Source of the DNA: Bryopsis sp. KO-2023
Taxonomy: Eukaryota > Chlorophyta > Ulvophyceae > Bryopsidales > Bryopsidaceae
NCBI GenBank assembly: GCA_030272585.1
Contig: BSYQ01000010.1
Coordinates: 2,170,001-2,234,000, forward strand
Direction of reading: 5' to 3'
DNA: 64,000 bases
Shown here: positions 6,568-46,600 of the stretch, piece by piece
Layout of the letters: the number at the start of each line of letters is the position of its first letter
How positions within the stretch are numbered: position 1 is the stretch's first letter
The notes under the pieces: generated by a model
The model's database searches: none
Told to the model about the DNA's origin: nothing
What the model saw: only the letters and a program-made list of their open reading frames with translations
Made by a program: the position numbers and the translations under genes

Positions 6568-9500
6568 ATGTCGGCGACGTCGGATGTTCAGTTGATGGGC
6601 GAGGTCAGAAAGGATGCGGGGTTGCGTCCTGTCGACTACGCACCGCTGGCGACCCTGGTGGTGCAGCTCGACGACGGCTCGTGGGAGGCCTATGTAAAAG
6701 GAGAAAAGGGGAAGAAAAAAGAGGACAGGCTGGTCAAGCTGAAGTGTTTGCTGTGCGGACACATGTGCTCTTGGTGTAAGTATTTTGTTTTGTTTTTTTT
6801 TTTCTTTTTCTGGGTTAATATTTCTGGAGTAGTTTTTTATTTTGGTGTGGATGTCTGCAGCCAAGGGGTCCTACAGTGGCATCAAGTCCCACTGCTCTGG
6901 GAGGCATGGTGTGAAAGACCATGATGTCCTCACCACTGCCAAGGGGTGGATCGATGATGCTGCGAAGGATGGGAAGGACTTCCCATTAGAAGAATGGACG
7001 TCGAAAATGGCAGCAGCAGGCCATTTGAAGCCAGGAAAGGGGGGGAAGTCAAGCGAGGACCCATCCGAGACGCTGATATCCAAGTCTCTACACCGGGTAG
7101 GTTTGTGATTGCTTGTGATGTTAATGCATGTGTTGTTGTGTTGCTGGATGCTGGAATTTCCAGCCTGAATTTTGGGGGACTGCATGTGTTGTTGTGTTGC
7201 TGGATGCTGGAATTTCCAGCCTGAATTTTGGGGGACTGCATGTGGTGCTGATGTGCATGTGTGATGTACAGAATGTGCGCTACCAAGCCGGCAGTGCCGG
7301 ATACAAGAGGTTCGTCAGGGAAGCGGCAAAGTGGGTGGCGAGGGACTCCCTTCCTTTTGGGACTCCATGCACTCCAGCCTTCCTCGAGTTCGCCAGGGTG
7401 CTTGAACCCAAATGCCCAAAAGTGGATCCCAAAACCATAAAGCGCGAGATCAGTTCTGTCTACAAGAGCGAGATGGAAAGGTTGACGAGGTCCGTCCCAT
7501 GGAAGGTAACCGCTTTTACGACCGACCTGTGGAAGAGTAGGACTTCATGTGAATATATAACATTCACATGCAGCTGGGTAGATACAGAGTGGGTTTTGCA
7601 GACTAGGACATTAGGATCGCATAGGTTAGAGTATACAAGCATAACCGCAGAGGTTCTTTCGGTGGAAATTCCAAAACTGCTTCAGGGGTACTTTGGGGGG
7701 TCAGCTCAGTTAGGAGAAATGAGGCCGACCATAATTTCAGATTGTGGATCGAATATTAGGAAGGCCCTTCAAGAAGAATTAGAATTTGACTGGCTCAGGT
7801 GCTCCTTGCACATGCTCCACAATGTGGTGCAGCTGGGCTTAGGGCATATAGGCGTTATTGGGAGGGTCAATAAACACACGGCCTTACTACTAGAGGCAAT
7901 AGATGTGTTGAAAGGGGTAGCAGCCCATGTACGGCGCTCCTCTACTTTTAAAACTAAGTTCAGTCAGGCTCAGGTAGAGATGTGGGAAAGGGGGGAAGGG
8001 GGGGAGGGGGGGGAGGTGGAGTACATGCCGGCGGACCTCGGGGAGGAGGAAAGCGAGGACTCGCTGGAGGATGCACAGGATATGGCGCCACAGGTGGATA
8101 AACTCTCCTTTATTTTCTGTTGCTTCCATTCACTTCCCTTTTTCTGTGTTGCTGCTTGCTTCTTGTTATAAGTTGAATTTTTTCTGACATCTAAATGGCT
8201 TGTTTTGGGTGTTGTTTGGCTGCAGGGTCCCACCAGTCAGGATCTTGATGATATTGCTGCAGCTGCTGCTGCTGCTGCTGCTGTGGAAGATCTGACATCA
8301 CAGGTGATTATTGAGTTGTATTTTTTTTTCCAAAATTTTGGTCCGGTTCCGGTTTTTTCCGGTTTTTTACGGTGTTTTACGGTTTTTTACGGGTGTTTTA
8401 CGGGTGTTTTACGGGTTTTTTACGGTTTTTTACGGTTTTTTACGGGTTTTTTACGGTGTTTACGGTGTTTTACGGTGTTTACGGTTGTTTACGGTTTTTT
8501 ACGGTTTTTTACGGTCGAACAAATTTTCACTATCATTGACATGTTGTGTTCCAATCGATTTCAATGCATGTCTGTGAGGTGACAAGTGTTGTGTGATCTG
8601 CAGGGAGAGGGCACGGCAGAGACCATGGATGTGGAAGTGGTTGGCCCTTCTCAACAGGCTGGTGGCCCTTCGCAACAGTCTGGTGCACCATCATCGCAGC
8701 CGGCACCCCCACCAAGAAAACCTAGGGTGCTGCAACTCCCCACGATCGTGAGCACACGGTGGAACAGCACCTTCATCATGCTCCAGAGAGCCGTGAGGCT
8801 CAGGCCAGCAATCGATCGATTGCTAGCTGAGCAACATGGGGAGGGGGATGAGCACCGTGAAATAACACCACGGCAGTGGACGCTGCTGGAGAGCCTGTTG
8901 GAGTTGCTGAAAATTGCGAGGGATGCCACACACCTGTAAGTACAACATTGCAGAAAAAAAACCAAACAAAAAACTTGATTATTGAGAAGATGTATGATTT
9001 TTCAAGTAGTGTGAACAAAACGACAAAAGAAAAAACAGGGAATAACAAACTGAACTGCAGCCCGTTATTTATCAAGTATTCATTCAATGTGATGTCTTGT
9101 TTTAGATTGGAGGCATCGAAAACAGTGACAAGCGGGAGGGTGGTCCTGACGTTCGCGAGGATCCACAGTTTTTGGAAAGACTGGATCAGAACAAATGTGG
9201 AGGCCGTGAAGGAGGGGAGATCCCCCCCACCGAACATCCAGGCGCTGTCGCCAATTGTGTATGCCATAGTGGACAAGCTGGAGAAGGAATGGAGCGACCC
9301 GCAGCTCGGGCTGGCCTGGATGTTGTGCGCTCTTATGGATGTGTCAGTGCGGTGGCGATCCCTCGAAGAAGCGTACCTGTTTTTGCAACTGCTGCCCGAC
9401 AACCAAGCTGATTTTCCTGCTCCCCAGGGGATGCTCCGGTTTTACCCTGAGAGACTCCTCTTCCACAAGTCCTCCATGCTGAGGCACCTAAGGATACTGC

Positions 9501-9913
9501 TTTCGGATCATGCACGTGATCTGATCGAGAAGGGGGAGATCACCGTCCAAGCCACACAAACCAAAAAAAGAAAAGGGAACATAAGCACAGTCTTGTGCAG
9601 CGATGACAGCGATGACGGTGGTGGTGGGGGTGACAGGACCTTGGCTTTGCATGAAATAGACAGATTTCTGGGTGAGAGACAGAATATGGGCAAGTGTAGT
9701 GAACCCCTGGTGTGGTGGCGGGAAAATAAAAGTCGACTTCCGATAGTTAGTGAGTTGGCTCGTCGGTATCTTGCTGTCCCAAGCAGCTCAGCTGCTAGTG
9801 AGCGTGCGTTCTCAAAACTGGGACACATAGTGCGTTCTAGAAGGTCACGGTTATCCGATGATCACATCACCGAGCTTTCACTTTTATCGGGCTGGTGTGA
9901 AGAGCGGGGTTGA
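6568..9913 (+). CDS. hAT transposase with BED zinc finger, 827 aa
   Basis: Six exons chain in phase: 6568-6775, 6861-7096, 7272-8093, 8226-8303, 8604-8935 and 9106-9913. The first two build a BED-type zinc finger (C60, C63, H80, H85). The third holds the first half of the RNase H-like catalytic domain, with TTDLWKS (Asp about 233), SDCGSN (Asp about 305) and the hAT-typical CSLHMLHNVV. The fifth carries RWNSTFIMLQRA. The last contains the C-terminal dimerisation region (WWRENKSRLPIVSELARRYL followed by SSSAASERAFS), which includes the conserved Glu. An Ala run in exon 4 and a Gly/Glu stretch in exon 3 are low complexity. The protein cuts and rejoins the element at its terminal repeats. Length and domain order fit full-length plant-type hAT transposases. 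Confidence 0.92.
7137..7246 (+). repeat. Tandem duplication in hAT intron 2
   Basis: A segment of about 57 bp beginning GTTGTGTTGCTGGATGCTGG and running through CCTGAATTTTGGGGGACTGC is present twice head to tail in the second intron. It does not alter the coding exons. Confidence 0.8.
8340..8515 (+). repeat. Intronic (TTTTTTACGG)n minisatellite
   Basis: About 175 bp of imperfect TTTTTTACGG, GGTGTTTTACGG and TTTACGG units in intron 4 of the transposase. The ACGG core is the one used in the subterminal arrays, so this may be an internal expansion of the transposase-binding word. Confidence 0.8.
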
Positions 9914-15260: not shown

Positions 15261-15669
15261 GCTCGTGGGCAGTCATGGGCTGCACAGGACAGACCCCTGT
15301 CCTGTGCATCGCATAGGACAGGGTTCTGTGCGGGTTCTGTGCACCCTGTGCTGTCCTGTCCTGTTTTTCGAAAATCCAGGACAGACGTGCACAGGGTCAG
15401 ATCTGTGCTGCACAGGCGCACAGACTGCACAGCACAGCACAGACTCTGCACAGACTCTGCACAGACTCTGCACAGACTCTGCACAGACTCTGCACAGAAC
15501 TGCACAGACTCTGCACAGAAGTTGCACAGACCCTGCACAGACCCGGTCTGTGCTGTGCTGTGCAGGTCTGTGCACCTGTGCAGCACAGGTCCAACCCTGT
15601 GCACAGAACAGACAGTCTGTTCTGTCCTGTCCTGTGCACAGGGGTCTCAGCCCATGTATGCTCGTGGGC
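15261..15669. mobile_element. Foldback element copy 1 with 10-bp TSD
   Basis: Element 15271-15659 (389 bp) between direct 10-bp repeats GCTCGTGGGC (15261-15270 and 15660-15669). Ends are inverted (CATGGGCTG and CAGCCCATG), and the two halves are made of CACAGG/CCTGTG words that are largely complementary, so the whole can fold on itself. The centre has about nine tandem CTGCACAGA-type units. There is no coding capacity. A 10-bp duplication suggests mobilisation by a Mutator-type transposase (inference). It interrupts the gag region of the DIRS-like element; removing it joins the same reading frame. Confidence 0.85.
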
Positions 15670-20046: not shown

Positions 20047-20755
20047 TTAGTCACCCTCCACGTGTACAACAGCCGTCGACATATTCGGCAACGCAGGCAG
20101 CCCATACGGTGCACCCTCAAGAAGGCGGTCCATTGGAGCGAACTCCTTATGGTAGACCAACACAACCTCCTGGGCACCCACCGCATCTCGGAGGACTGAC
20201 ACCCCAGCAAATTCTTCGAGCAAATAGCGACAAGCCGTCGCCACCGCCTCCTCAGTTGCTTTCCAGCAAGCCTCGAGTCGTTTCCTGTACGTCGCGCCGG
20301 AATGCGTCGTTCGTTTCGTAAGCCATCTCGATCCTCTTTAATGCTGCAACGTAGGAGGGATTCGTCGATCCTCCTGTGACGTCGTCCCAAGCGCACTCCT
20401 TGCAGCGCACGTCGCCAGCGGCTGCGTTGCGTGCGAGTCTGTGCAGTTTCTTACTCCTAATCTTCGCACTGCGAATGGCGCGGTCTTTCGTGTAGCCAAG
20501 GGCTAAGTACGTCCAAACCGACGGCGCCTGTGGAACCAATGGGCGCACGGTCCACCCCTCGGAGAGTGTCGAAAGTATATACTGGAGCCTGCTGGTTACG
20601 TTCTTCTTGTTGTAATGCCCGTTTTTTGGCGACATCGCGAAAATGACCACACCGGAATTGACTGGACGCATAAACGAAAAGGCTTCTCGAGGTACATTTG
20701 TTTCGGGAGGAGCTCCTTCCGTTGTGGCGGCTGCGTGTTGATTATGTGCCCCCAT
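20047..20755 (-). pseudogene. Broken cyclodipeptide synthase-like copy (frameshift)
   Basis: Minus strand, a clear paralogue of the intact gene at 28690-29418. Reading starts at ATG 20753-20755 and keeps the N-terminal half, including the nucleophile motif (FAMSPKNG) and the TYLALGY block. Against the intact copy it lacks 11 nt near 20250, just after RGLLE, which throws the frame to an early TGA. The remaining part, with RYLLEE, VYHKEF and YGLPALP, follows in another frame to TAA. Catalytic codons survive on both sides of the lesion, so the break looks young. Upstream, CTCTTGCAG just before the start codon looks like an intron acceptor, as in the intact copy. Confidence 0.78.
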
Positions 20756-21550: not shown

Positions 21551-21970
21551 GTCATGGGCTGCACAGGACAGACCCCTGTCCTGTGCACCGCACAGGACAG
21601 GGTTCTGTGCAGGTTCTGTGCACCCTGTGCTGTCCTGTCCTGTGCAGCGGAATTGCACAGGCCAGAACAGCACAGACTGTCTGTGCTGTGCACAGGGTCA
21701 GACCTGTGCTGCACAGGTGAGCAGACCTGCACAGCACAGCACAGATCTGCACAGAATCTGCACAGAACTGCACAGAATCTGCACAGATTTGGCACAGAAT
21801 CTGCACAGAACTGCACAGAAACTGCACAGATGTTGCACAGACCCTGTCTGTGCTGTGCTGTACAGGTCTGTGCACCTGTGCAGCACAGGTCTGACCCTGT
21901 GCACAGCACAGACAGTCTGTTCTGTCCTGTCCTGTGCACAGGGGTCTCAGCCCATGTCTGATGACTGCCA
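21541..21970. mobile_element. Foldback element copy 2 with 10-bp TSD
   Basis: Element 21551-21960 (410 bp), flanked by direct repeats ATGACTGCCA (21541-21550 and 21961-21970). It has the same ends (GTCATGGGCTG and CAGCCCATG) and the same CACAG/CTGTG internal structure as the copy at 15271-15659. Cys/Gln-rich ORFs on both strands are products of the repeat. It lies 28 bp upstream of the 5' LTR of the intact retrotransposon. Confidence 0.85.
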
Positions 21971-21998: not shown

Positions 21999-22272
21999 TG
22001 TGGTGAAAAAGGAGAGTCGATAGTTAGATGAGAAGGGGAATTGGGACGAAATGAGACGCGTGGGTGTTTGCGGCTGAATGGCCGAGTTGTGATGACGGGA
22101 GGAACTTGTGGTTGTGGTGTGTGGAACGTTTGTGGTCGGAAAGTGAAAGGGGCGATACTTATGGGGGCTGTTGTTGTTGTAAGAGATGCCTTATTTGTTT
22201 TGAGTTTACGGAGTAACTTCGTCTGCGAACGTTTGGTTCTATTATCGTGTACAGTTCAAACTTTACACAACA
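21999..22272 (+). repeat. 5' LTR
   Basis: 274 bp, TG...CA ends, same sequence as 27728-28001. A 77-codon open frame runs through both LTRs and is incidental. Confidence 0.95.
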
Positions 22273-24800
22273 TGGTTTCGGAGCGCAACCCCCTGGGGTT
22301 TTTACTCGTGCTATATGGACTTCTCTGGCTTACCATGACAAGTCCTTTTGCACCACACGTTTTGGTCGAAAGGTCGACCCTATTACGTCGCAAGGAGCGG
22401 CGAAAAATATGGAGCGCGTCCCTTGCTCCTCGTCCGGTAACACTTGTCGAGTTTTTGCGTTGGGTTTCGAGGGCGTTGCTGTTAACTCTTCTTCAGATAG
22501 GAGGGGTTGAACAGCATCCTGGACCTTCGTCTGGGGAACGACGCTACTCAGCCTGGACGCAAGAACTGGACCAATGGCTGTGGGCGGTGGTGACTGCGGC
22601 CAACACATCGTTTGGCTCGCGAATTAAAGCATTGCTCAAATACTTTGATCTGAATACCTCGGGCGGCCAAGTTATCGCCAGAATTACCGCAGAAATGGCG
22701 GAAAAGGATGCTACTGAGTTGGTGAACGAGTTTTACGGAGGAGTGGTTCCCGCAGGAGGATTCACGACGACACATCGGTGGGACTGTTTACGAAAACGCT
22801 TGGGGGAAACTCTGCCACATCCGACGACACTGGATGTTGAGAGGTTGCTCACTAATATGAAGAAGGGACCTCACGAATCTTTACGAGGTTTTGTCAAACG
22901 ATTCGTTTTGAGAGCACAATCGTATCCTGCCTCTCAGTTGGATGTGCAACGTGCAGCACACATTTTGTACAGAAAATTGCCCCTGTCCCTTCAACAAGGT
23001 TTGGCGGTCACTCCCTTGACTAATTGTTCTCTCGACAAGTTGGAAGAAACGGTCGTTACTTACGTCAATTGGAACACAGTGTCGACTTCTCCAGGAAAAC
23101 TCCCAGCGCCTGATTATATGGATTTGGATCAGTTACAGTTGGGGGCGCATGGTTTGATGGAAGAGGAAGGATCAGGCATGGATCAGCGAACGGAGGGCTT
23201 AAAGTACCAGCGAGGGAAAACGCGACCTCCAGTTGTGGAAGGCGATAAAATCCACTTTGATCGCATTGACGGTCCTATGTCTTTGGTGGCGGCGTGGAAG
23301 GCGTTGGTAACGACAGGTCGATATTATCGACAGCTTTCTCAGGAACATCTACAGCGCTTGGGAAGTAAAGACATGCATCGTCATATGCAAGACATGGGAA
23401 TTCAGCAATTACGTTTTCGCGATCATGCTGAGGTACTTGGTGATTACTCTGACGAACGATCTGGCCAAGGATCTGATGATGCAGACCGGGTGGGGCGTGT
23501 GACTGAGTTAAACGACGATGAAGCTGATGCATTGTTTCCTATGACGACTGTACCATGTTCCCAACCTCCACAGTCGTCGATCGTGATCCAGGCGGAGACT
23601 CCTTCTATCACGGAATATCATGATGCACGGGAAGACTTCTCGCAAAACAATTGTTCGGTTGCAGTGTCTTGCGAGAACGAGGGTGAAGTGGTGGACAGTG
23701 GGCCTACGTTAACGAATGCACGCTTTTTGGGACTGCAGCTTCGGGATGTGGATCTTTCTACATTGACGATTCCGGATCGTGTGCTACAGCAGCCGTCGCC
23801 TCCTTCCTCTCCTTCAAATCGACCTGTTGTTCGAACTGTCGAGGTTCCTCCTGCATCCCCGTTTTTGTGGACTGCGCCCATCGCTGGTGGATCAGAAGCA
23901 AGGACACATTCGCCTGTGAATTTGAATGATGGGGCGCCCTCGCGTCAGGTGGCTTTCGCTGATTTGGATATTGCGTCGTCTTCTTCTCGCGATGTATCCA
24001 TGTTGGACGCTCCAGTGGTGGAAACGATTTTGGGATCGTCGACGACGACCTCTGATGCAGGCGAACAGGTGGAATTACTCAGCTATCGACTTTCAGATCC
24101 TGTGCCTCCCTTGAAGTGCAACCATGTCCAAGGCAAACCAAAAAAATCACTTCATGTCCCTCTTTGGGCACATGACACACGGCTGTCCGCCTTAGTGGAT
24201 ACAGGCGCGACTCACAGCTTTGTGCAGCTGGCTCTCGTCAAATCATTGCATCAGGAGGGCAGCATGCGCCCCTGTGATCGGAGTGTGATGTTTGGTAACG
24301 GCGAATCCGCTCCTATTCTTGGGCAATTGGAGATGGAGGTTCGAGTCTCGCCTACGGCGAACGAAACATTTGCTTTGTCATTATATGTGCTTTCCGGAAA
24401 AGGGCCGTCATTAATTTTGGGCTTCCCATTCCTAGAACAACATGGATTTTTGGTGGACTGCTCCCGCCGGTTGTTATCACGCGCCCATTCTCCTGTCGTC
24501 CACTGCGATAGGGTGTCCTCCACCTCTCCTCCTGTGCGCCTCCTCTCCACTCTCTCACCTCTCTCGATTCCTGCCGGCTCCACCCTTGCTGTTCCTACTG
24601 ACGCCTCCCTCACCAATGCTGACCTGTGCCATGTTCAAATCCACCCCCAGCTGGCCCAGAATTACCACCTCCACGTGCTTTCCTCGGGCGTCGATCGAGC
24701 TGGCACCTTCAAGGTGGTGCTCCACAACCTGTCCTCCTCCTCCTGTTCCCTCCCCACTGACCTGCCCTTCTGTCAGTTGTGGCTTCGGTCAAAAAACTGA
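22272..24800 (+). CDS. Retrotransposon gag-protease polyprotein, 842 aa
   Basis: The start ATG straddles the LTR/PBS junction (22272-22274). An N-terminal hydrophobic stretch ends in TLLQIGGVEQHPGP (Pro about residue 85), a degenerate 2A-type motif. A capsid-like region follows (RRYSAWTQELDQWLWAVVTA; LRGFVKRFVLRAQSYPASQL). The aspartic protease has active-site LVDTGATHSF (Asp about 643) and flap/core SLILGFPFL (about 715). After it, residues of about 770-840 (PTDASL ... VDRAGTFKVVLHN ... LPFCQLWL) resemble the C-terminal strands of trimeric dUTPases. The frame ends TCA AAA AAC TGA. No CCHC knuckle was seen. Confidence 0.85.
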   Translation: MVSERNPLGFLLVLYGLLWLTMTSPFAPHVLVERSTLLRRKERRKIWSASLAPRPVTLVEFLRWVSRALLLTLLQIGGVEQHPGPSSGERRYSAWTQELDQWLWAVVTAANTSFGSRIKALLKYFDLNTSGGQVIARITAEMAEKDATELVNEFYGGVVPAGGFTTTHRWDCLRKRLGETLPHPTTLDVERLLTNMKKGPHESLRGFVKRFVLRAQSYPASQLDVQRAAHILYRKLPLSLQQGLAVTPLTNCSLDKLEETVVTYVNWNTVSTSPGKLPAPDYMDLDQLQLGAHGLMEEEGSGMDQRTEGLKYQRGKTRPPVVEGDKIHFDRIDGPMSLVAAWKALVTTGRYYRQLSQEHLQRLGSKDMHRHMQDMGIQQLRFRDHAEVLGDYSDERSGQGSDDADRVGRVTELNDDEADALFPMTTVPCSQPPQSSIVIQAETPSITEYHDAREDFSQNNCSVAVSCENEGEVVDSGPTLTNARFLGLQLRDVDLSTLTIPDRVLQQPSPPSSPSNRPVVRTVEVPPASPFLWTAPIAGGSEARTHSPVNLNDGAPSRQVAFADLDIASSSSRDVSMLDAPVVETILGSSTTTSDAGEQVELLSYRLSDPVPPLKCNHVQGKPKKSLHVPLWAHDTRLSALVDTGATHSFVQLALVKSLHQEGSMRPCDRSVMFGNGESAPILGQLEMEVRVSPTANETFALSLYVLSGKGPSLILGFPFLEQHGFLVDCSRRLLSRAHSPVVHCDRVSSTSPPVRLLSTLSPLSIPAGSTLAVPTDASLTNADLCHVQIHPQLAQNYHLHVLSSGVDRAGTFKVVLHNLSSSSCSLPTDLPFCQLWLRSKN
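22273..22284 (+). other. Primer binding site TGGTTTCGGAGC
   Basis: Begins immediately after the 5' LTR, as expected for tRNA-primed minus-strand synthesis. The complement would be a tRNA 3' end GCTCCGAAACCA. It overlaps the first codons of gag. Confidence 0.8.
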
Positions 24801-27705
24801 ACCCTGTCCCGGTGGCCCCCCCGGCCACCGGGACCCCCCCCCTCCCCTTCCCCCTCCCCTTCCCCTTCCCCCTTCCCCTCCCCCCTCCCCCCCTCTCACC
24901 TACACTGAGACCCCTCCCTTTTCCCCCTTTTACCATCACCTCCGTCTCCACTTCCCCTTCGGGCGCAGTTGGGTCCTCCCTCCTCATTCCAGCCGTAGCC
25001 TCACCCTCCCCCTCCGCCTTCCTCCTGGTTCCCTCTCCGACCTCGTCGACTCCCTCCCCCTCTGTGGCGTCCATTTTCGTGTCAAGTCCGATGGCCGCCG
25101 CATCTGGGGCACTCTGACCAACACCACCTCCCGCCCCCTCCACCTCACTCCCCGGATGACCCTCTGCTCCGCCCGTTCCTCCCTGTCCACCTTCGTCGTC
25201 CCCGACTCCCCCTCCTCGTTCCCGATTCCCTCTCGTCCCTCCACCTGTCCTTTCCGCCTCCCCCCGGAGTTGGCAGGGAAGATTTCCTCTCTCCCAGCAG
25301 CCCCAGCACCTACCACCTGTCCTACTCGTGCCTCTCTCGTGCCTCCCCTTCCAGAGCCAGCTCCAGAACCGAGATTTACTCCAGACCCTGAGGTGGCGGA
25401 CTTGATTCGCGAATTCCCCGAGGTGTTTTCCAATACCTTGGGCTGCTGCAAGTCTCACACTGTGGGACCGCTGCCCTTCGAGTTTTTACCCCCTCCTCAA
25501 GAACATGCCAAGTCTTTGCTCAGTGGCCCAGCGGAAGAGGAAAAACTATGGTCCCAAATTCAGGAGTGGGAAAGCCAGGGTATCGTTCGAGAGGTACAGG
25601 AGGAACCATTCTTGATTCCGATTTTTGGTATACCGAAAAAAGATAATACTCTGACTCGGTGGGTTTCCGATTTTCGAAGGCTGAATGCATGTATCGGGAA
25701 AAGGCCTTGTCAGTTGCCGACTGTTGAACATTCAATTGCTAGAGTTAAGCCGTTTTCGATTGGCAGTTCCCTTGATCTCAAGGATGCTTATTTTCAAGTA
25801 AAGATGCATGCTGAAGCATCTCGTTTTATGGGTTTGCAGTGTAAAAATCGTTGGTTTGTGTGGAATAGACTGCCGCAAGGGTATTCTAATGCCAGTTTTG
25901 AGTTTACCCGAGCGATTAGAACCGCTATAGTGCGAGCTCAAAAAAGAATGAATTCTCAGGTGCTATCTTATTTGGATGATGTTATTTTGCTGTCGGAAAA
26001 TAAAGTGCAACACAAGAGGGATTTACGAATTTTGCTGGAAGAATTACGCAGGGATGGTTGGACGGTCGGATACAAAAAGTGTGCTTTCTTTCGGACTGAA
26101 TTCGAGTTTTTGGGGATAAAACTATCGACGCGAGGGATGACGCCTGGTGCCAAGCTTTGGAATAAATTGGAGGAGTTAAAGAAACCGGTCACCAAAACTG
26201 AGTGGCGTTCAGTGAGAGGATGGTTCAATCAGCTAGCACGATTTGTTTATCAAGGACAGAAAGCGCTGGAGAGGTTGCAGCGAGCTGAGTTATTGTCGAG
26301 TGAGGTGATTTGGAAAGAGTTTTTGACCTTTTTACGAGCACACACAGTGCGTTGCAGTTATGTCAGTAAGGATTCTCAGTCTTTCGTTGTGTCAGTAGAC
26401 GCTTCGAAGTTTGGGTGGGGATCAGTTTTGTTACACGAACAAAAAATAATAAAATGTGCCAGTGGGTCCTGGAATAAATCATTTAGACATAAAATGTCTA
26501 ATGAACTGGAATTAGAAGCTCTGTTGCGGGCATTGGAGGTGTTCAGGCCTTGGATTTTTAGTCGGCCAGTGATCGTTATGACTGATAATTCCTCAGTTCA
26601 AAGTTTTATGAATCCGGCAAATACCAGTGATTTTATTAAAAGGCGACTGGATAAAATATTAGCAGTGGCTCCGGATGTCAGATTTATTCCAGGGGCAGCT
26701 AATGTGGTGCCCGACCTGTTATCGCGGTTCGAAGAGGGAAAAAAGGTACACGCAGCAACAGTTAAACCGACAGAAAAGGATTGGCAAGAAGTGCACCAAG
26801 GGCACGTAGGCGTCTACCAATCGTGGGCTCGCGAGCAAAGGTTAAAAAAGGGTTTTTCGCACGAAGAAATAAAACGGAGGGTGTCGGCGTGTGAGGTGTG
26901 TCAGCGTTTTCAGAAACGAACACCATGCGCGGAGTTTGGTTACATACAACAGTCGACAGCGCCGAATGCTGTGGTTGCTCTTGATTTTGTGGGTCCAGTA
27001 CAAAAGTCTGCTGCTGGTAATAAATTCTTTTTAGTTTTGGTTGATACTCTTACACGACAAACACTAGTTCGTGCGTGTAAGCTTAATTCGGCAGCGGCAG
27101 CTGTAGCAGCGTTAAAAGAGTGGGAAGTCAAGTTTGGGAAAATAAAAAACGTGTTGACCGATAATGCCAGTTGTTTCTGGTCCTGGGCATATACTGGATA
27201 TTGTATTTCGCGCGACATCGAAAGGATTTATGTGCCACCATACTCGCACAAATCCAACGGTTTCGTGGAGCGTGCTAATCAGAATGTGATTAGTCGCATT
27301 CGTCGGTTGATGTTGGCAGCGAAAACACAGGATTGGGAAAGTGTGTTAGGACAGGCACAACAAGCTTTAGATACTATGGTGAACAGAGTAACGCAGTTTA
27401 CTCCGACAGAACTCAGGCAAGCAGGGCCATCTATGTGGAAGGTCGCAGTTCGACGTATGATGGCTCACAGACAAAAGGTGAATGCGAAATATCGCAAGGG
27501 CTTGCGAGAACGAGAATGGAAGAACGGACAGAGAGTTTACGTGTACGATTTCAAAAGGGAAACTCGTAAACAGCATAAATTCGATCCTTATTGGATTGGA
27601 CCAGGACTTATTGTGGGGAGGGAATCTAGAACTATTTTGAAGGTGTCAATGCCACATCAAGTGATTAGAGTTCACTCTGATTTTGTTTTTCCTGTGAACG
27701 GTTAG
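24798..27705 (+). CDS. Retrotransposon pol: RT, RNase H, integrase
   Basis: Pol lies in the +1 frame relative to gag and is open from 24442, overlapping gag by about 360 bp. After a Pro-rich and Ser/Thr-rich linker (to about 25380) comes RT: SLDLKDAYFQV, RLPQGYSNASFEF and SYLDDVIL (25966-25989). RNase H follows with SVDASKFGWGS near 26395, ELEALLRAL and VMTDNSSVQ. The integrase has an HHCC finger (HQGHVGVYQ; CEVCQRF near 26890), then the DDE residues in ALDFVGP (about 26980), LTDNAS (about 27158) and SNGFVERANQ (about 27275), and a C-terminal basic/SH3-like part ending VHSDFVFPVNG, TAG. All catalytic residues are present. Confidence 0.9.
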
Positions 27706-27727
27706 AGAAAGAAAGCGCAGGGAAGCG
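27704..27727 (+). other. Polypurine tract
   Basis: Purine-rich run AGAGAAAGAAAGCGCAGGG directly upstream of the 3' LTR, the expected plus-strand primer site. Confidence 0.75.
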
Positions 27728-28001
27728 TGTGGTGAAAAAGGAGAGTCGATAGTTAGATGAGAAGGGGAATTGGGACGAAATGAGACGCGTGGGTGTTTGC
27801 GGCTGAATGGCCGAGTTGTGATGACGGGAGGAACTTGTGGTTGTGGTGTGTGGAACGTTTGTGGTCGGAAAGTGAAAGGGGCGATACTTATGGGGGCTGT
27901 TGTTGTTGTAAGAGATGCCTTATTTGTTTTGAGTTTACGGAGTAACTTCGTCTGCGAACGTTTGGTTCTATTATCGTGTACAGTTCAAACTTTACACAAC
28001 A
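27728..28001 (+). repeat. 3' LTR
   Basis: 274 bp, same as 21999-22272. Followed by target duplication CTGC at 28002-28005. Confidence 0.95.
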
Positions 28002-28689: not shown

Positions 28690-29418
28690 CTAGTACTGCA
28701 CGTTTACAACAGCTGTCGAAATATTCGGCAACGCAGGCAGCCCATACGGTGAACCCTCAAGAAGCCGGTCAAGGGGAACGAACTCCTTGTGGTAGACCAA
28801 CACAACCTCCTGGGCACCCACCACTTTCCGGAGAACTGACAACCCTGCAAATTCTTCGAGCAAATAGCGACAAGCTATCGCCACCGCCTCCTCAGTCGCT
28901 TTCCCGTCCCTTTTCAGCAAGCCTCGAGAAGCTTCCTGTACGTCACGCCGGAAGGCGTCGTTCGTTTCGTAAGCAGTCTCGATTCTCTTTAATGCTGCAA
29001 CGTAGGAGGGATTCGTTGCTCCTCCTGTCAGGTCGTCCCATTCGCAGTCCTGGTAGCGCACATCGCCAGCGGCTGCCTCGCGAGCAAACCGAAATAGTTT
29101 CCTCCATATCTCCCGCGCACTGCGAATGGCGCGGTCTTTCGTGTAGCCAAGGGCTAAGTACGTCCAAATCGACGGGGCCTGTGGAACCAATGGGCGCACG
29201 GTCCACCCCTCGGAGAGCGTCGAAAGTATATACTGGAGCCTTCTGGTTATGTTCTTCCTGTTGTAGTGCCCGTTCCTGGGCGACATTCCGAAAAGGACCA
29301 CACCGGACTTGGCTGGACGCATAAACAAAAAGGCTTCTCGAGGTTCTGTTCCCGTCGCCTTTGTTTCGAGAGGCGCTCCTTCCGTTACGACGGCTGCGTC
29401 TGGATTTTGTGCTTCCAT
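28690..29418 (-). CDS. Cyclodipeptide synthase-like protein, NYH type, 242 aa
   Basis: CDPSs take two aminoacyl-tRNAs and make a cyclic dipeptide (diketopiperazine) through an aminoacyl-enzyme on a Ser. Visible here: nucleophile motif VVLFGMSPRNGHY (Ser46, Asn49), TYLALGY (86-92), RYLLEE (Tyr185, Glu189) and VYHKEF (Tyr209, His210). AlbC uses S37, Y178, E182 and Y202. The spacings here are 139, 4 and 20, against 141, 4 and 20. Asn49, Tyr209 and His210 place it in the NYH subfamily. Length matches the family (about 220-250 aa). The paralogue at 20047-20755 starts at the equivalent Met. CTCTGCAG just upstream looks like an acceptor, so a 5' exon may exist; an open N-terminal extension of 67 codons also runs to 29619. 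Stop is TAG at 28690-28692. Substrates cannot be told from sequence. It probably came from bacteria by transfer (inference). Confidence 0.8.
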   Translation of the reverse strand: MEAQNPDAAVVTEGAPLETKATGTEPREAFLFMRPAKSGVVLFGMSPRNGHYNRKNITRRLQYILSTLSEGWTVRPLVPQAPSIWTYLALGYTKDRAIRSAREIWRKLFRFAREAAAGDVRYQDCEWDDLTGGATNPSYVAALKRIETAYETNDAFRRDVQEASRGLLKRDGKATEEAVAIACRYLLEEFAGLSVLRKVVGAQEVVLVYHKEFVPLDRLLEGSPYGLPALPNISTAVVNVQY

Positions 29419-29876: not shown

Positions 29877-32253
29877 ATGGCGTCCCTATTGGTGGAGCTC
29901 CCCTCCGGCCAAGAGACCGTCCAAATTTTGGTCGGTTCGCTGCTGTGCTGGGGGCTGATTCGTTTCGTGTGGAGGCGGTGGAAGTATGACTTGCACCGGC
30001 TCCCTGGGGCCCCAGAGTTTCCAATATTGGGGCATGTGACCCATCTTTCTCTGGAGAAGCCTCAGCTGCATCTGAGTCAGTTCAAATGGTGTCGAGAATT
30101 CGGCGATGTCTTTCGGGTAGGATTTGCTGTTCTGTTAATGGATGTCTCCATGAGAATTTTTGGATTGCTGAGTTTTTTTTGAAGTAGATGTCAGTCCCAC
30201 ACAATTATCGGCGAAAGGGGAGAAGCTATAACACAAGATGCGAAAAGGGTCGCACATGCATATATTGACAAGATATTGATTTTTGTTTTTTTTTAAACGC
30301 AGAGCTGTTTTTTTCCTGTTCTTTCTTCCTTTTTTTTGCCACTTTGCAATGCATCCACCCAGAAAAACCACACTTTTTGTTGGATTTTTTTTTGGGGGGG
30401 GGTGTCCCTAGCACACTTCCACCTCCCCCTTTTTTCCATATCAGATCAAATTTTTGGTTGGATTTTAAGAACCAGTAAACTGATGCCATCCCTCTTTTAA
30501 TATGTGGTTTGTGTGTTTTTTGGATGTGCAGATCAATATGATGGGCATGGTAGTCGTTGTGGTCAATGACCCAGAACTAGCCAGAAGAGAGGTTGCTGCC
30601 AATGGCTCCAAAGACTTACCGAAATCCGTATTCTATCGATCCCTGCTACAGGTTTGCAGTAAAAAAAAAAAGGGAAAAACTGAAATTTAACAAATACAGT
30701 TGAAGAAACAATAAGAATAAAAAAGGGACTGGAGAGTGGAAGTTTTTCCTTCTTTCTCAAATTTTGTTGCATTTTGTTGCATACACTCTGCAAATGAGTG
30801 ACATGACTAATGATTATGTATATATATATATTTATTATTAATAATATATTTGATGAATTAAAAAATGATAAAAAAATGAAATGTATTACACCGAGGCTAG
30901 AAGCCCCAGGTAGCCCATCCACCATGTAAATGACGGGTATCCACCCAGAGCTCATAAGAATAATTGAACGAGTCGCCCACCCCTGCCTGAGCGACATGAC
31001 TAATAATAATAAAATCCAATCAGCTTTGTTATTCTTTCATCAACTTTTTTTTTTTGCACCCCTCTCAGATTTTCGGCCCCAAAAATGAAACCAATATTTT
31101 GACAGCACCCCACGTCAATGAAAGCTACCGAGGCCGTCGCAAGAAACTGGCGCTGGCCTTCAGCACCCACCAGCTAAAGAAAAGCTTCCCCCCAATCCGC
31201 CAAAGAGCAGCAGCTCTTGGAGATTTCATCGCCGGATTGAACGGGGAATCGGTGGATGTCCAAAGCGTGCTCAACCGATATGTGTTCGACGCACTCGGAA
31301 TTTTTGCCTTCGACACCGAATTCCGTGCCGTCGAGAACGAAGGGCACCCCTTTTTGACAGCCCTGGAGACATGCACGGATGAATCCATGGCAGACACCCT
31401 CCTTCCCCCCCGCTCCATGATGAAAAAGGTTTTCCCCTTTTGGGGGGTTGCTCGCAAAGCCAGACGGGCGTTCGAGGAAGTGTACCGACACTATGAGGCC
31501 GTGGGGAGGAAGGTTACCAAACAGGCAGATTTTTATGAAGATGGCGACGATTCCATAGCAGCGAATTTGGGGAGGATGTGGAAAGCTGGGGAGCTGTCCA
31601 TGGATGAGCTCTGTGCTGAGCTGGCAGGGATTTTTGTCGCCGGGGTCGACACCACTGCCCACACTCTGACTTATGCCCTGTGTTTGCTTGCGGAGCATCC
31701 CCATGTCCAAACGAAGCTGAGGAAAGAAATCGAGGAGCACGGTTTCGGGGGGAAATCTGGGAAAGAGCTGACCTATCAGGATTTGAGCGGGTTGAAGTAT
31801 CTGGGGCATGTGGTGGCGGAGACGTTGAGATATTTCCCAGCAGTGCCATACCTCAGTCGAGAAGCGAGTCGAGACATGTGCATTAAGGGCTACCGGATTC
31901 CCAAAGGGACCATCATCAGCGTGACGACCTTAGCTTTCAACCGGGCGGCTCCTTTCGAGAGGCCGGACGAGTTTTGGCCGGAACGGTGGGAGAGGAAGGA
32001 AGACCCCACGGAGGTCACCGATTTTATAAAGGCGGGAAAGCATTTCTCGTTTTCGACGGGCAATAGGGATTGCATTGGGCAGAGGTTGGCGGTGCTGGAG
32101 CTACAGCTGGGGGTGTTTGAGTTGGTGAGGAGGTTTGAAGTGCGATTTGACCCCAGGATGGGGGGGTGGAAGGAGGTCGAAGAGAATTCCTATGGATCCA
32201 TCGCTGTGGCGATAGATGGAGGGGCCTGGCTGAAATTTACCCAATCTGTTTGA
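29877..32253 (+). CDS. Cytochrome P450, three exons, 514 aa
   Basis: Exons 29877-30116, 30532-30651 and 31069-32253, all in phase. The N-terminus carries a membrane anchor (TVQILVGSLLCWGLIRFVW) followed by a basic/proline hinge (LPGAPEFPILGH), typical of ER-bound P450s. Motifs in exon 3: I-helix AGVDTTAHT (about 311), K-helix ETLR (about 371), PERW, and haem loop FSTGNRDCIG with Cys about 455. These are complete, so it should be a working haem monooxygenase needing a P450 reductase. The family cannot be assigned without a search. It is head to head with the CDPS gene, and bacterial CDPS products are commonly oxidised by P450s, so tailoring of a cyclodipeptide is a reasonable guess but not shown. 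Confidence 0.95.
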
Positions 32254-43640: not shown

Positions 43641-46600
43641 TCAGGGCATCAAAAATTTTGGCAAAGGGGTGGGATGGTTTGAATCCTTTTCTATGCCCCT
43701 GTTACAGACAAAACCGAAATGAAACATTTGGGCGACCTCTCGAGTTTGCATTCCCATGGACATGTGCGAAACGGAGGATCCGAAATAAACGGGCCTCCAT
43801 TTCGGTTTGCTTTCCATCAGATCCGCGATTGGAATGTAGACTGCCGGAATATCGGACAAAAACAATTCGTTCACCTGAGAATAACACACCACATCCCACC
43901 AAAAAATGAAAAAATGAAAAAAAATATAATACACAAATATAAGAATATAAAAATAGGAATACAAATATAATAATATTATTTTATTTTATTTTATTTCAGC
44001 CAATAAGTAAATCAAGCAAGAAAGTTTGGGATCCAGAATCAGGCAAAGAATAAAAAAACCGGAAAAATAAAAATAAAATTTGGGGCATTTTTTGGGTTTG
44101 TGTATATTTGTCTGTGGCTGCCCCTTTTTTTTTCCCGGGGGGCCATCACCGACAGAACCACAAAAAAAAAATCACAAAAAAGGGAATAATCTTAATCTTA
44201 ATCTCGTCAAACATTAAGAAAATTTGATGCGAAAAATCTTGGTTTTTTTCTTCCCAAACGTTTTTTTACTTGCCACAGTTTGTTTTTTCTTCCTTTCTTT
44301 TTTTTTCTCGGCACCTGAAAAAAAGTCCCGTTGAGTGGAAACTTTCCCTTCATCGCTGTGCGCGATGGGGTCAAAATCAAAAATGGAATATCTTGGCGGC
44401 CTTCCTTCAGATATGGCAATATGTCCCATCGAGCCGTCATCAAATCCTCGCTGTCTGCCCTTGCATCCACAGGGAAAACCCGAGGATCGGGCAGCAAAAA
44501 ATAAGGGTTGGGATCTTCTGCGATTCGAGGGGGAAAGCCGAGTTGAATGATTGGGTTCAAAAGCTTGCCCACACCTGTTTTGATTGTCGGAAAATAAACA
44601 ACGAAACGAAACGAATCATGATGAGGAGAAAAAAGTGCTCTTTTCTTAATTTTTTTTTTTTTTAGTTATTTTCAATTGTTCGGGGCCGAATGGATATTAT
44701 CACTTCCCCTCCACGAAAAGAAAAACAAAAACAAATGAAAAAAAAAAAATGAAAAGAAAAACGGAGAACTGTAGGTTTAGGAATTTTTTTCTTTTTTTTC
44801 TCCTGTCGGGAGATCTCATCCGGAAAATAAAAACACACACCTAAACAAAAAACGTAGAAGTTGAATTGAAAACATCGAAATAAACTGCAAAAAAAAGAGA
44901 GTCCGTACCCATGATTGCGAAAAACACTCGCCGAGTGTGTGATTGAGTGGGGGGGCCCGGGTGAATGATTAATTCGTTTGTTTTATCGCAGTCTTCGGCT
45001 GCCTGCCGAACATCATCCCCGTAATCGTCCATCCCCAGATCCGTTAAGAATTCATCTGAAACATACATACATTTGAAAAAAAAAAATACATAAAAAAAGA
45101 ATCAATGCAGTGTATCCAAAACATACATCAACCTCTTGCCTCAATCACTTTGCACCCCCCCCCCCAAAAAAAAACACTACTCAAAAAAAATAAAAACAAA
45201 CAGGGAAAGAAATATATCTATGTATATATTTTTATGTCTATTTATTCTTTTTTTTTAGCTTGACAAGAGAACGGAATCTGTTTTTTTTTTTTAATTTCAA
45301 TCAGAAAAGAAAAAAAGGCCTCAGGAGCTCGACAAGAAAAAGGAATCCGTTTTCGGCACAAACCACTCCTCTGTTCCCTTGCGAAGTATCCAATATTACC
45401 CAACCGTTGATCTTTGACCGATCGGTTACCGGGCCAAACACAAAACACTCCTCTTTCTTTTTGCTCACCATCGGTTTCTCCAGTGGCCACCTGCAAGGCC
45501 TCACTCACCGCAGCGAAAGCCCTGCCTGCATCAGCATTGGAGCACTTATCCGGATGAATCAGCATCGAAATCTTGTGATAGCGTTTCTTGGCGGCTCGAT
45601 GGTCCCCCCTCTGGCTCTCCTCCAACCCCAGAATCAGCTCCGACCTGCACAAATCCATCGCATCAGCCAGCTCCGGAGCGCCCAACACTGATGTAGACTC
45701 CTCCGGCATGTTCTCCACCAACTCCATGATTCGCTCCACCTCCTGATCCCCAGCAGTTTTCGTGGATTCGCCCATCGCTGAAACCGCACCTCCATGACTT
45801 ACATCCTCAGCAAGCTGCTGTCCCATGGAGTTCGAGGCATTTGACTTGGTGTGCTGATGGGGAGCAGGGCTGAGATTCGGCTTGCTCGAGCCAGGTTCAA
45901 TACGAGAAGCCGTCGAAGCATCTCCACCCACGGAACGATTCTTCTCAACGGGCAAGCCCACACTTTCACAGACGCTGGATCTTGTTTTTCCAGCGCTGCT
46001 CCTCTGATTGGACCCCACCGAATCCCTGACTCCATCTGAGCTGCCCAAAACCTCCTCACTGTTGAGCGAAATCGGAACCCCTGAAGGGGAGCTTCCCTGG
46101 TTTCGTTTGGCTGAGGGGGGCGGCGGTGGAGACATCGGCCCCGCCAAATCTTCCACATCAGGCAGGCTGGACCCCACTCGAGCTGGAGTTTGATATTCCC
46201 CACCAGGTGTTGGCACCAGGTTGGTCATTCGGTTAGGGGTTAGGTGGCCAGGTCCGACCCCAGATGCAGCGGAGAAGATTCCTAAGGCCTCCGCCTGTTT
46301 CGCCTGACAAGCTTCGATCTTGGCCGATCGTCTGGGGGTTTCGTAGCCTTCCGATTGGGGAGGGCTGTTGGTGTTCTTTTGAGGGGAGCCCTGGGAGGAA
46401 GCTGGGGATTTCCTGGGTGGCGAATTCTTCTTGAATGGCTTTCTCTTACGCTTTGGGGGTTTCATTGAGGAGGGGTCAAACCTGATACCAAACAGAAATC
46501 CTGCTCAATTCGGTGAACCCCCCCCCCGAGAGGTTACCGAAAAACAAATAAAAAAAAAAACCTGAATCTTTCTGGATCCGGAAATGAATCGAGGTTTTGT

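Follow-up and report, generated by a model that had tools for sequence, protein, structure and literature searches.

Seven intact cyclodipeptide synthase genes in the green alga Bryopsis sp. KO-2023, one of them head to head with a cytochrome P450 gene

Does a green seaweed carry its own cyclodipeptide synthase (CDPS), and if so, is the gene likely to work and how did the alga come by it? CDPSs build bioactive rings from aminoacyl-tRNAs that they divert from translation, and have been characterised mainly in bacteria. The question is raised by a single gene in a 64,000-nucleotide stretch of DNA (the window; bases 2,170,001-2,234,000 of contig C10, which is 5,138,194 bases long) from an assembly of 91.09 Mb in 28 contigs. 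This assembly, GCA_030272585.1, is that of Bryopsis sp. KO-2023 (PMC12509668; this and the other papers cited by PMC number are drawn on from excerpts), and a taxonomy look-up placed the host in Chlorophyta, Ulvophyceae, Bryopsidales. An initial annotation, made from the letters of the window alone, had proposed a CDPS gene at 28690-29418 in a probably green-algal genome; host and coordinates both proved right, and we add the strand (minus).

The 242-residue window protein matched PF16715 at 62.4 bits (curated cut-off 27, E = 6.9e-17) and TIGR04539 of NCBIfam at 95.3 bits (curated cut-off 45, E = 3.7e-27). With both scores over their cut-offs, the match is far beyond chance, and the prospect raised in the initial annotation, that a profile search might find no CDPS, fell away. 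The residues singled out there (S46, N49, Y185, E189, Y209 and H210) are all present and share alignment columns with S37, N40, Y178, E182, Y202 and H203 of AlbC, and the claimed Ser-Tyr, Tyr-Glu and Glu-Tyr spacings of 139, 4 and 20 follow from their positions. They comprise the catalytic Ser, Tyr, Glu and Tyr of CDPSs (AlbC 37, 178, 182 and 202; here S46, Y185, E189 and Y209), which are invariant in all seven intact copies described below, and the trio of the NYH subfamily (AlbC N40, Y202 and H203; here N49, Y209 and H210), likewise kept in 7/7. CDPSs, unlike class I aminoacyl-tRNA synthetases, are not known to have a HIGH or KMSKS ATP-binding motif; neither exact string was found in the window protein, which was searched by eye for exact strings only. 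M1 is common to the seven intact paralogues, so the 283-residue database entry for the window copy (P0001) probably begins 41 residues too early.

The predicted structure agrees with the profiles. An AlphaFold2 model of the window protein (predicted local distance difference test score 89.1) has the Rossmann fold of class Ic aminoacyl-tRNA synthetases, and all 43 of its Foldseek matches in the PDB at E<=0.001 are CDPSs; the second refutation named in the initial annotation, a fold without this core, thus fell away too. Every test of sequence and fold available to us identifies the window protein as an NYH CDPS. It adds a member, from a branch of life new to them, to an already known family of enzymes, and the kind of enzyme is not new.

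The window gene belongs to a family. We found eight near-full-length CDPS matches in the Bryopsis genome, all on C10 and all above the PF16715 cut-off, while the identical search gave no match in any of 14 control genomes. Seven of the eight are intact: the window copy, L002 (88% identical to the window copy), L003 (80-81%), L004 (BSKO_11155; 64-67%), L005 (BSKO_11241; 54-57%), and L007 and L008 (the latter BSKO_10830; both 50-54%). BSKO_11155, BSKO_11241 and BSKO_10830 are named in the database as hypothetical proteins. Across the seven, the six key residues are kept down to a pair identity of 48%. The remaining copy is the decayed paralogue that the initial annotation had noticed near the window gene; it is split over two frames and has an internal stop (Table 1). 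What had been described was one gene and its broken relative; the family is larger, with seven intact copies in the genome and an additional CDPS fragment near L005. The broken copy sits inside a 3.66-kb segment with 89% identity to the L003 region, which means that segmental duplication accounts for part of the family's growth. The CDPS copies are scattered over 2.8 Mb of the 5.1-Mb contig, amid retrotransposons of eukaryotic type. Pairwise ratios of nonsynonymous to synonymous substitution rates (dN/dS, NG86 method) are below 1 in 21/21 pairs of intact copies and range overall from 0.17 to 0.51, with 0.17-0.44 in the more distant pairs and 0.48-0.51 in the four closest. This indicates constraint, relaxed after recent duplication.

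We then compared the window protein with known systems. AlbC (Streptomyces noursei, an NYH CDPS; PDB 3oqv and 4q24) is 21-22% identical to it, differs in the P1 and P2 pocket motifs and lacks a 3-residue insert that the algal rows have before the second strand; the window gene, moreover, is part of a eukaryotic genome. YvmC and BtCDPS (NYH CDPSs of Bacillus; PDB 3s7t and 7azu) are 20% identical and have Phe at pocket positions 185 and 186, where the window protein has Gly and Leu. Nearer are the patescibacterial and archaeal CDPSs of TIGR04539 type (L025, L050, P0006), which share a TYxA(L/I)GY stretch with the Bryopsis proteins and are up to 33% identical. Some prokaryotic CDPSs are fused to a solute-binding-like domain, PF00497 (16/120 among the matches listed, e.g. 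P0016, P0017 and P0030), whereas the Bryopsis proteins are unfused. The CDPS open reading frames (ORFs) at 14 loci from Patescibacteria, Melainabacteria and uncultured bacteria (L022-L035) are 465-498 residues long, a length that probably reflects a PF00497-type fusion there too.

Eukaryotic CDPSs already in print are the NYH enzymes of animals (Nematostella Nvec-CDPS2, which is characterised, and those of corals and worms) and the XYP enzymes of fungi (PMC5816076, PMC2922099); they are eukaryotic like those of Bryopsis but from other kingdoms, and were compared by published description only. The initial annotation had held that few eukaryotic CDPSs are reported and none is known from the green lineage. 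The second part stands in so far as we found no green-lineage report in the titles and abstracts of the open-licence PMC literature searched, which is not proof of none in print; the first takes no account of the diatom Seminavis robusta, for which several weakly conserved CDPS candidates have been published and whose mating attractant is a diketopiperazine (PMC8027222).

Beside the window CDPS, in divergent orientation, lies a gene for a cytochrome P450 (Table 1). The gene appears complete, with three exons and two introns; the exon borders, read by eye from the sequence, follow GT/AG and each exon is a multiple of three. The ORF of exon 3 matched PF00067 at 216.7 bits. Among solved structures, a putative P450 and CYP3A enzymes come closest to the protein and bacterial CYP102-type reductase fusions rank lower; as the CYP3A enzymes are the best named among these relatives, the P450 is probably of eukaryotic type. 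The Bryopsis genome has at least about 18 P450 loci (33 match rows merged by hand), which gives a chance expectation of about 0.003 for a P450 lying no more than 1 kb from one of the seven CDPS genes (hand arithmetic, post hoc); this is no more than suggestive of a pairing beyond chance. Neither the P450 matches of the genome nor the segment comparison showed the P450 duplicated together with other CDPS copies. Some 3 kb downstream of L004, and on its strand, is an ORF for an NAD(P)-binding protein. On Streptomyces plasmids, too, a CDPS gene adjoins a P450 gene (L055 and L056, both of the two regions opened, among six hits), but there the two overlap and share a strand, whereas the Bryopsis pair is divergent and its P450 has two introns. 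Elsewhere in the assembly, contig C8 (G000) has five close-set P450 matches at 790,978-862,925, 36-37% identical to the window P450; C8 has no CDPS match.

Table 1. Features of the window connected with the CDPS gene (window positions)
Feature	Position	Strand	Description
Cyclodipeptide synthase (CDPS) gene	28690..29418	minus	Single exon, 242 aa; ATG at 29418, stop TAG 28692-28690
Ser46	29281..29283	minus	Predicted nucleophile for the first aminoacyl group, by alignment; conserved-serine role as in PMC7566563
Tyr185-His210 stretch	28789..28866	minus	Catalytic Tyr185, Glu189 and Tyr209, with YH of the NYH trio, by alignment
Broken CDPS paralogue	20050..20755	minus	Read 20755-20050; residues 1-167 in one frame, 159-239 in another, internal stop; closest to intact L003
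Cytochrome P450 gene	29877..32253	plus	~514 aa; exons 29877-30116, 30532-30651, 31069-32253; divergent from CDPS; candidate tailoring enzyme
Gap between CDPS and P450 start codons	29419..29876		458 bp; candidate shared bidirectional promoter, a presumed role

For the origin of the family we turned to trees. The seven Bryopsis proteins formed one clade with P0005, from a contig of 1,191 bases, in a tree of 55 rows (support 100/100). This clade stood beside patescibacterial, melainabacterial and archaeal CDPSs, including L025, L050 and P0006, and was split (100/98) from the rows of Streptomyces, other Actinomycetota and Bacillota. Its exact place on that side is weakly resolved (91/75), so that the L025/L050/P0006 type may be its sister or may include it. 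The best identity of any Bryopsis copy to a row outside the clade was 33% in the tree set. Within the clade, P0005 grouped with L007 and L008 (98/87), by which the family may be older than the split of Bryopsis from another organism. We dropped P0005 as proof of an old family, as the 18-row tree did not resolve its place and a clade of the Bryopsis proteins alone is not rejected by the approximately unbiased (AU) test (p 0.069).

The search for a donor covered several collections. In a collection of genome contigs, none of 17 pattern hits to the Bryopsis profile A1 was confirmed, while the bacterial profile A5 yielded 19 loci from 42 pattern hits. Among sampled genomes, A1 at E<=0.001 matched 3/396 in the phylum of G015 (genome of L039, Streptomyces), 1/398 in that of G007 (L028, an uncultured proteobacterium), 5/379 in that of G004 (L025, Kerfeldbacteria) and 5/279 in that of G014 (L037, an archaeon); the starting genome is counted in each of these figures. 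The top A1 score in these genomes was 114 bits (G1224), and L050 was the best match to the Bryopsis profile. The archaeal matches are L037 (genome DeMMO2_15) and L050, L051, L053 and L054 in four others of the 279 same-phylum genomes, one of them partial. The protein search was lossy, as the query row P0005 was itself missing among the matches listed, and absence there proves little. Mobile elements were considered as a source and rejected: in viral contigs no relative was confirmed with A1 (24 pattern hits) or with P0006 (8 pattern hits), none of 50,697 phage records had a CDPS match, and the 6/72,556 plasmid records that matched were all from Streptomyces, at 24-26% identity. P450 genes of the Bryopsis genome match in separate pieces, and the CDPS gene is a single exon of a mainly bacterial type, which makes horizontal transfer the natural reading; judged from such sequence features, the gene probably reached the alga by an old transfer.

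Next, we examined the predicted pocket. The window protein has P1 LGLPDGLL and P2 AGLRKFV (the 8 and 7 positions of PMC5816076, with the alignment of position 119 uncertain). At position 185, every one of the seven intact copies has Gly, Ala or Cys, against Leu or Phe in the four solved references. The copies also differ from one another at pocket residues, e.g. Leu versus Trp at position 200, which suggests that they do not all make the same ring; on this evidence, different copies probably make different rings. A prediction of the product from the pocket motifs was attempted and gave no confident answer. Helix 94-116 carries eight Lys or Arg residues and is a likely tRNA contact.

Taken together, the results computed directly (the enzyme family and its predicted fold, the conservation of catalytic residues, the number of copies, the signs of selection and the gene order) are best explained by a working nuclear NYH CDPS whose ring is probably oxidised by the P450, with an old transfer and subsequent multiplication of the copies; we regard this explanation as a whole as likely and hold it with good confidence. 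From these results we infer the activity and substrates of the enzyme, its partnership with the P450, the transfer, its cellular place and its ecological role. In the AlbC-type cycle (PMC7566563, PMC5816076), the serine accepts an aminoacyl group from its tRNA, reaction with a second aminoacyl-tRNA yields a dipeptidyl-enzyme and cyclisation sets the ring free; all seven intact copies have the residues named in these papers, without variation. By homology to AlbC, the first aminoacyl group would pass from its aminoacyl-tRNA onto Ser46 while Tyr185 and Glu189 hold the amino acid; a second aminoacyl group would then be added from a second aminoacyl-tRNA with Glu189 as the base, and the cyclic dipeptide would be released with Tyr209 active in catalysis. 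The head-to-head P450 probably oxidises the ring, which would make this a two-gene, tRNA-dependent diketopiperazine pathway. The CDPS gene would have multiplied along one chromosome after the transfer, and the rings plausibly serve chemical defence or signalling.

Several results weigh against parts of this explanation. Identity to solved CDPSs is 14-22% among the matches listed, with a maximum of 22%, and the P1 and P2 motifs of the window protein fit no specificity motif among the motif rows of PMC5816076 compared. Database proteins were returned for only 4/7 intact copies (P0001-P0004), L002, L003 and L007 not being returned, and the similarity of the window copy to L002 spans only 864 bp. 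The P450 adjoins just one of the seven intact copies, and the only other P450 match on C10 is at 4.17 Mb. As to the transfer, the trees were built without animal, fungal or diatom CDPSs, and no close prokaryotic relative or nameable donor was found in the collections searched; the sampling of genomes by phylum left out Bacteroidota and most other phyla, and the 50 Bryopsis-associated metagenome-assembled genomes (MAGs) were outside the search. The long branch of the Bryopsis clade counts on the same side (1.88 changes per column in the 55-row tree and 1.4 in the 18-row tree). Such a branch would suit a CDPS-derived protein that still uses aminoacyl-tRNA and has taken on another job, for instance the synthesis of a linear dipeptide or the transfer of one amino acid to a peptide or small molecule, as would the small residue at pocket position 185 and the short inserts common to the aligned algal rows. 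We consider this unlikely, given that all residues of the CDPS cycle are invariant, the Glu base of the second step included, and that profile and fold both place the window protein among CDPSs.

It is also conceivable that the family was acquired horizontally, duplicated and is now dying, with no function left at the window locus. One copy is broken and a fragment lies near L005, the recent pairs stand at a dN/dS of about 0.5, which amounts to relaxed constraint, and a young retrotransposon ends 0.7 kb from the 3' end of the window CDPS. We nevertheless judge this quite improbable, as 7/8 near-full-length copies are intact with their six key residues kept between distant paralogues, and the 14 pairs with dS >1 show a dN/dS of 0.17-0.37, with the reservation that dS in these older pairs is near saturation. 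Bacterial contamination, or a misassembled fragment of a symbiont, has in its favour that CDPSs are mainly bacterial and that the host is rich in bacteria, with 38 closed bacterial MAGs reported from strain KO-2023 (PMC12509668). Against this, the copies are spread among eukaryotic-type retrotransposons over 2.8 Mb of one contig, an intron-bearing P450 adjoins the window copy, one copy pair lies inside a segmental duplication, and no close prokaryotic relative was found in the collections searched, which did not include the 50 MAGs. Contig context and copy number (seven intact copies, a broken one and a fragment on one contig) thus make contamination very unlikely, to the point of being negligible, and bear out the initial annotation, which had already thought it unlikely.

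The remainder of the window holds other elements. A Ty3-type long terminal repeat (LTR) retrotransposon at 21999-28001 lies between the broken and intact CDPS copies, and its ORFs 22032-24797 and 24436-27702 encode protease, reverse transcriptase, RNase H and integrase domains; its two LTRs, of 274 bp each, are 100% identical, and it was therefore probably inserted very recently. Near the broken copy, at 15408-15542 and 21722-21841, an 11-base unit (CTGCACAGACT-like) forms imperfect tandem arrays, and a similar translated repeat adjoins the L002 copy (L010 4317-4898). An ORF at 8861-9910 has a hAT-transposase dimerisation domain (PF05699, 66 bits), and one at 45245-46504 on the minus strand has a DnaJ domain (PF00226, 28.9 bits against a cut-off of 27.8). 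Scans of the window with Rfam (gathering threshold) and for tRNAs each gave no hits.

With seven intact copies, constraint, a confirming predicted fold and an adjacent P450, the case for a green-algal CDPS is stronger than could be known from the window alone. Seven intact, constrained copies in a genome of the green plant lineage point to CDPS chemistry taken up and diversified by a photosynthetic eukaryote, and Bryopsis offers a set of enzymes with unfamiliar pocket sequences and a neighbouring P450. A wider claim is that the alga has a non-ribosomal, tRNA-dependent diketopiperazine chemistry of its own, comprising seven nuclear CDPSs with diverged pockets, at least one of them joined to a P450, and older than the split of Bryopsis from the source of P0005; this we put forward tentatively and would not yet prefer to its opposite. 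As the mating attractant of a diatom is a diketopiperazine (PMC8027222), a signalling role is a testable idea for Bryopsis. The genes open the question of whether the diketopiperazines of a seaweed are made by the seaweed or by its symbionts. Should the wider claim prove true, the green plant lineage would gain its first CDPS pathway, and the alga itself, in place of its bacteria, could be the maker of some of the small cyclic peptides found in such algae.
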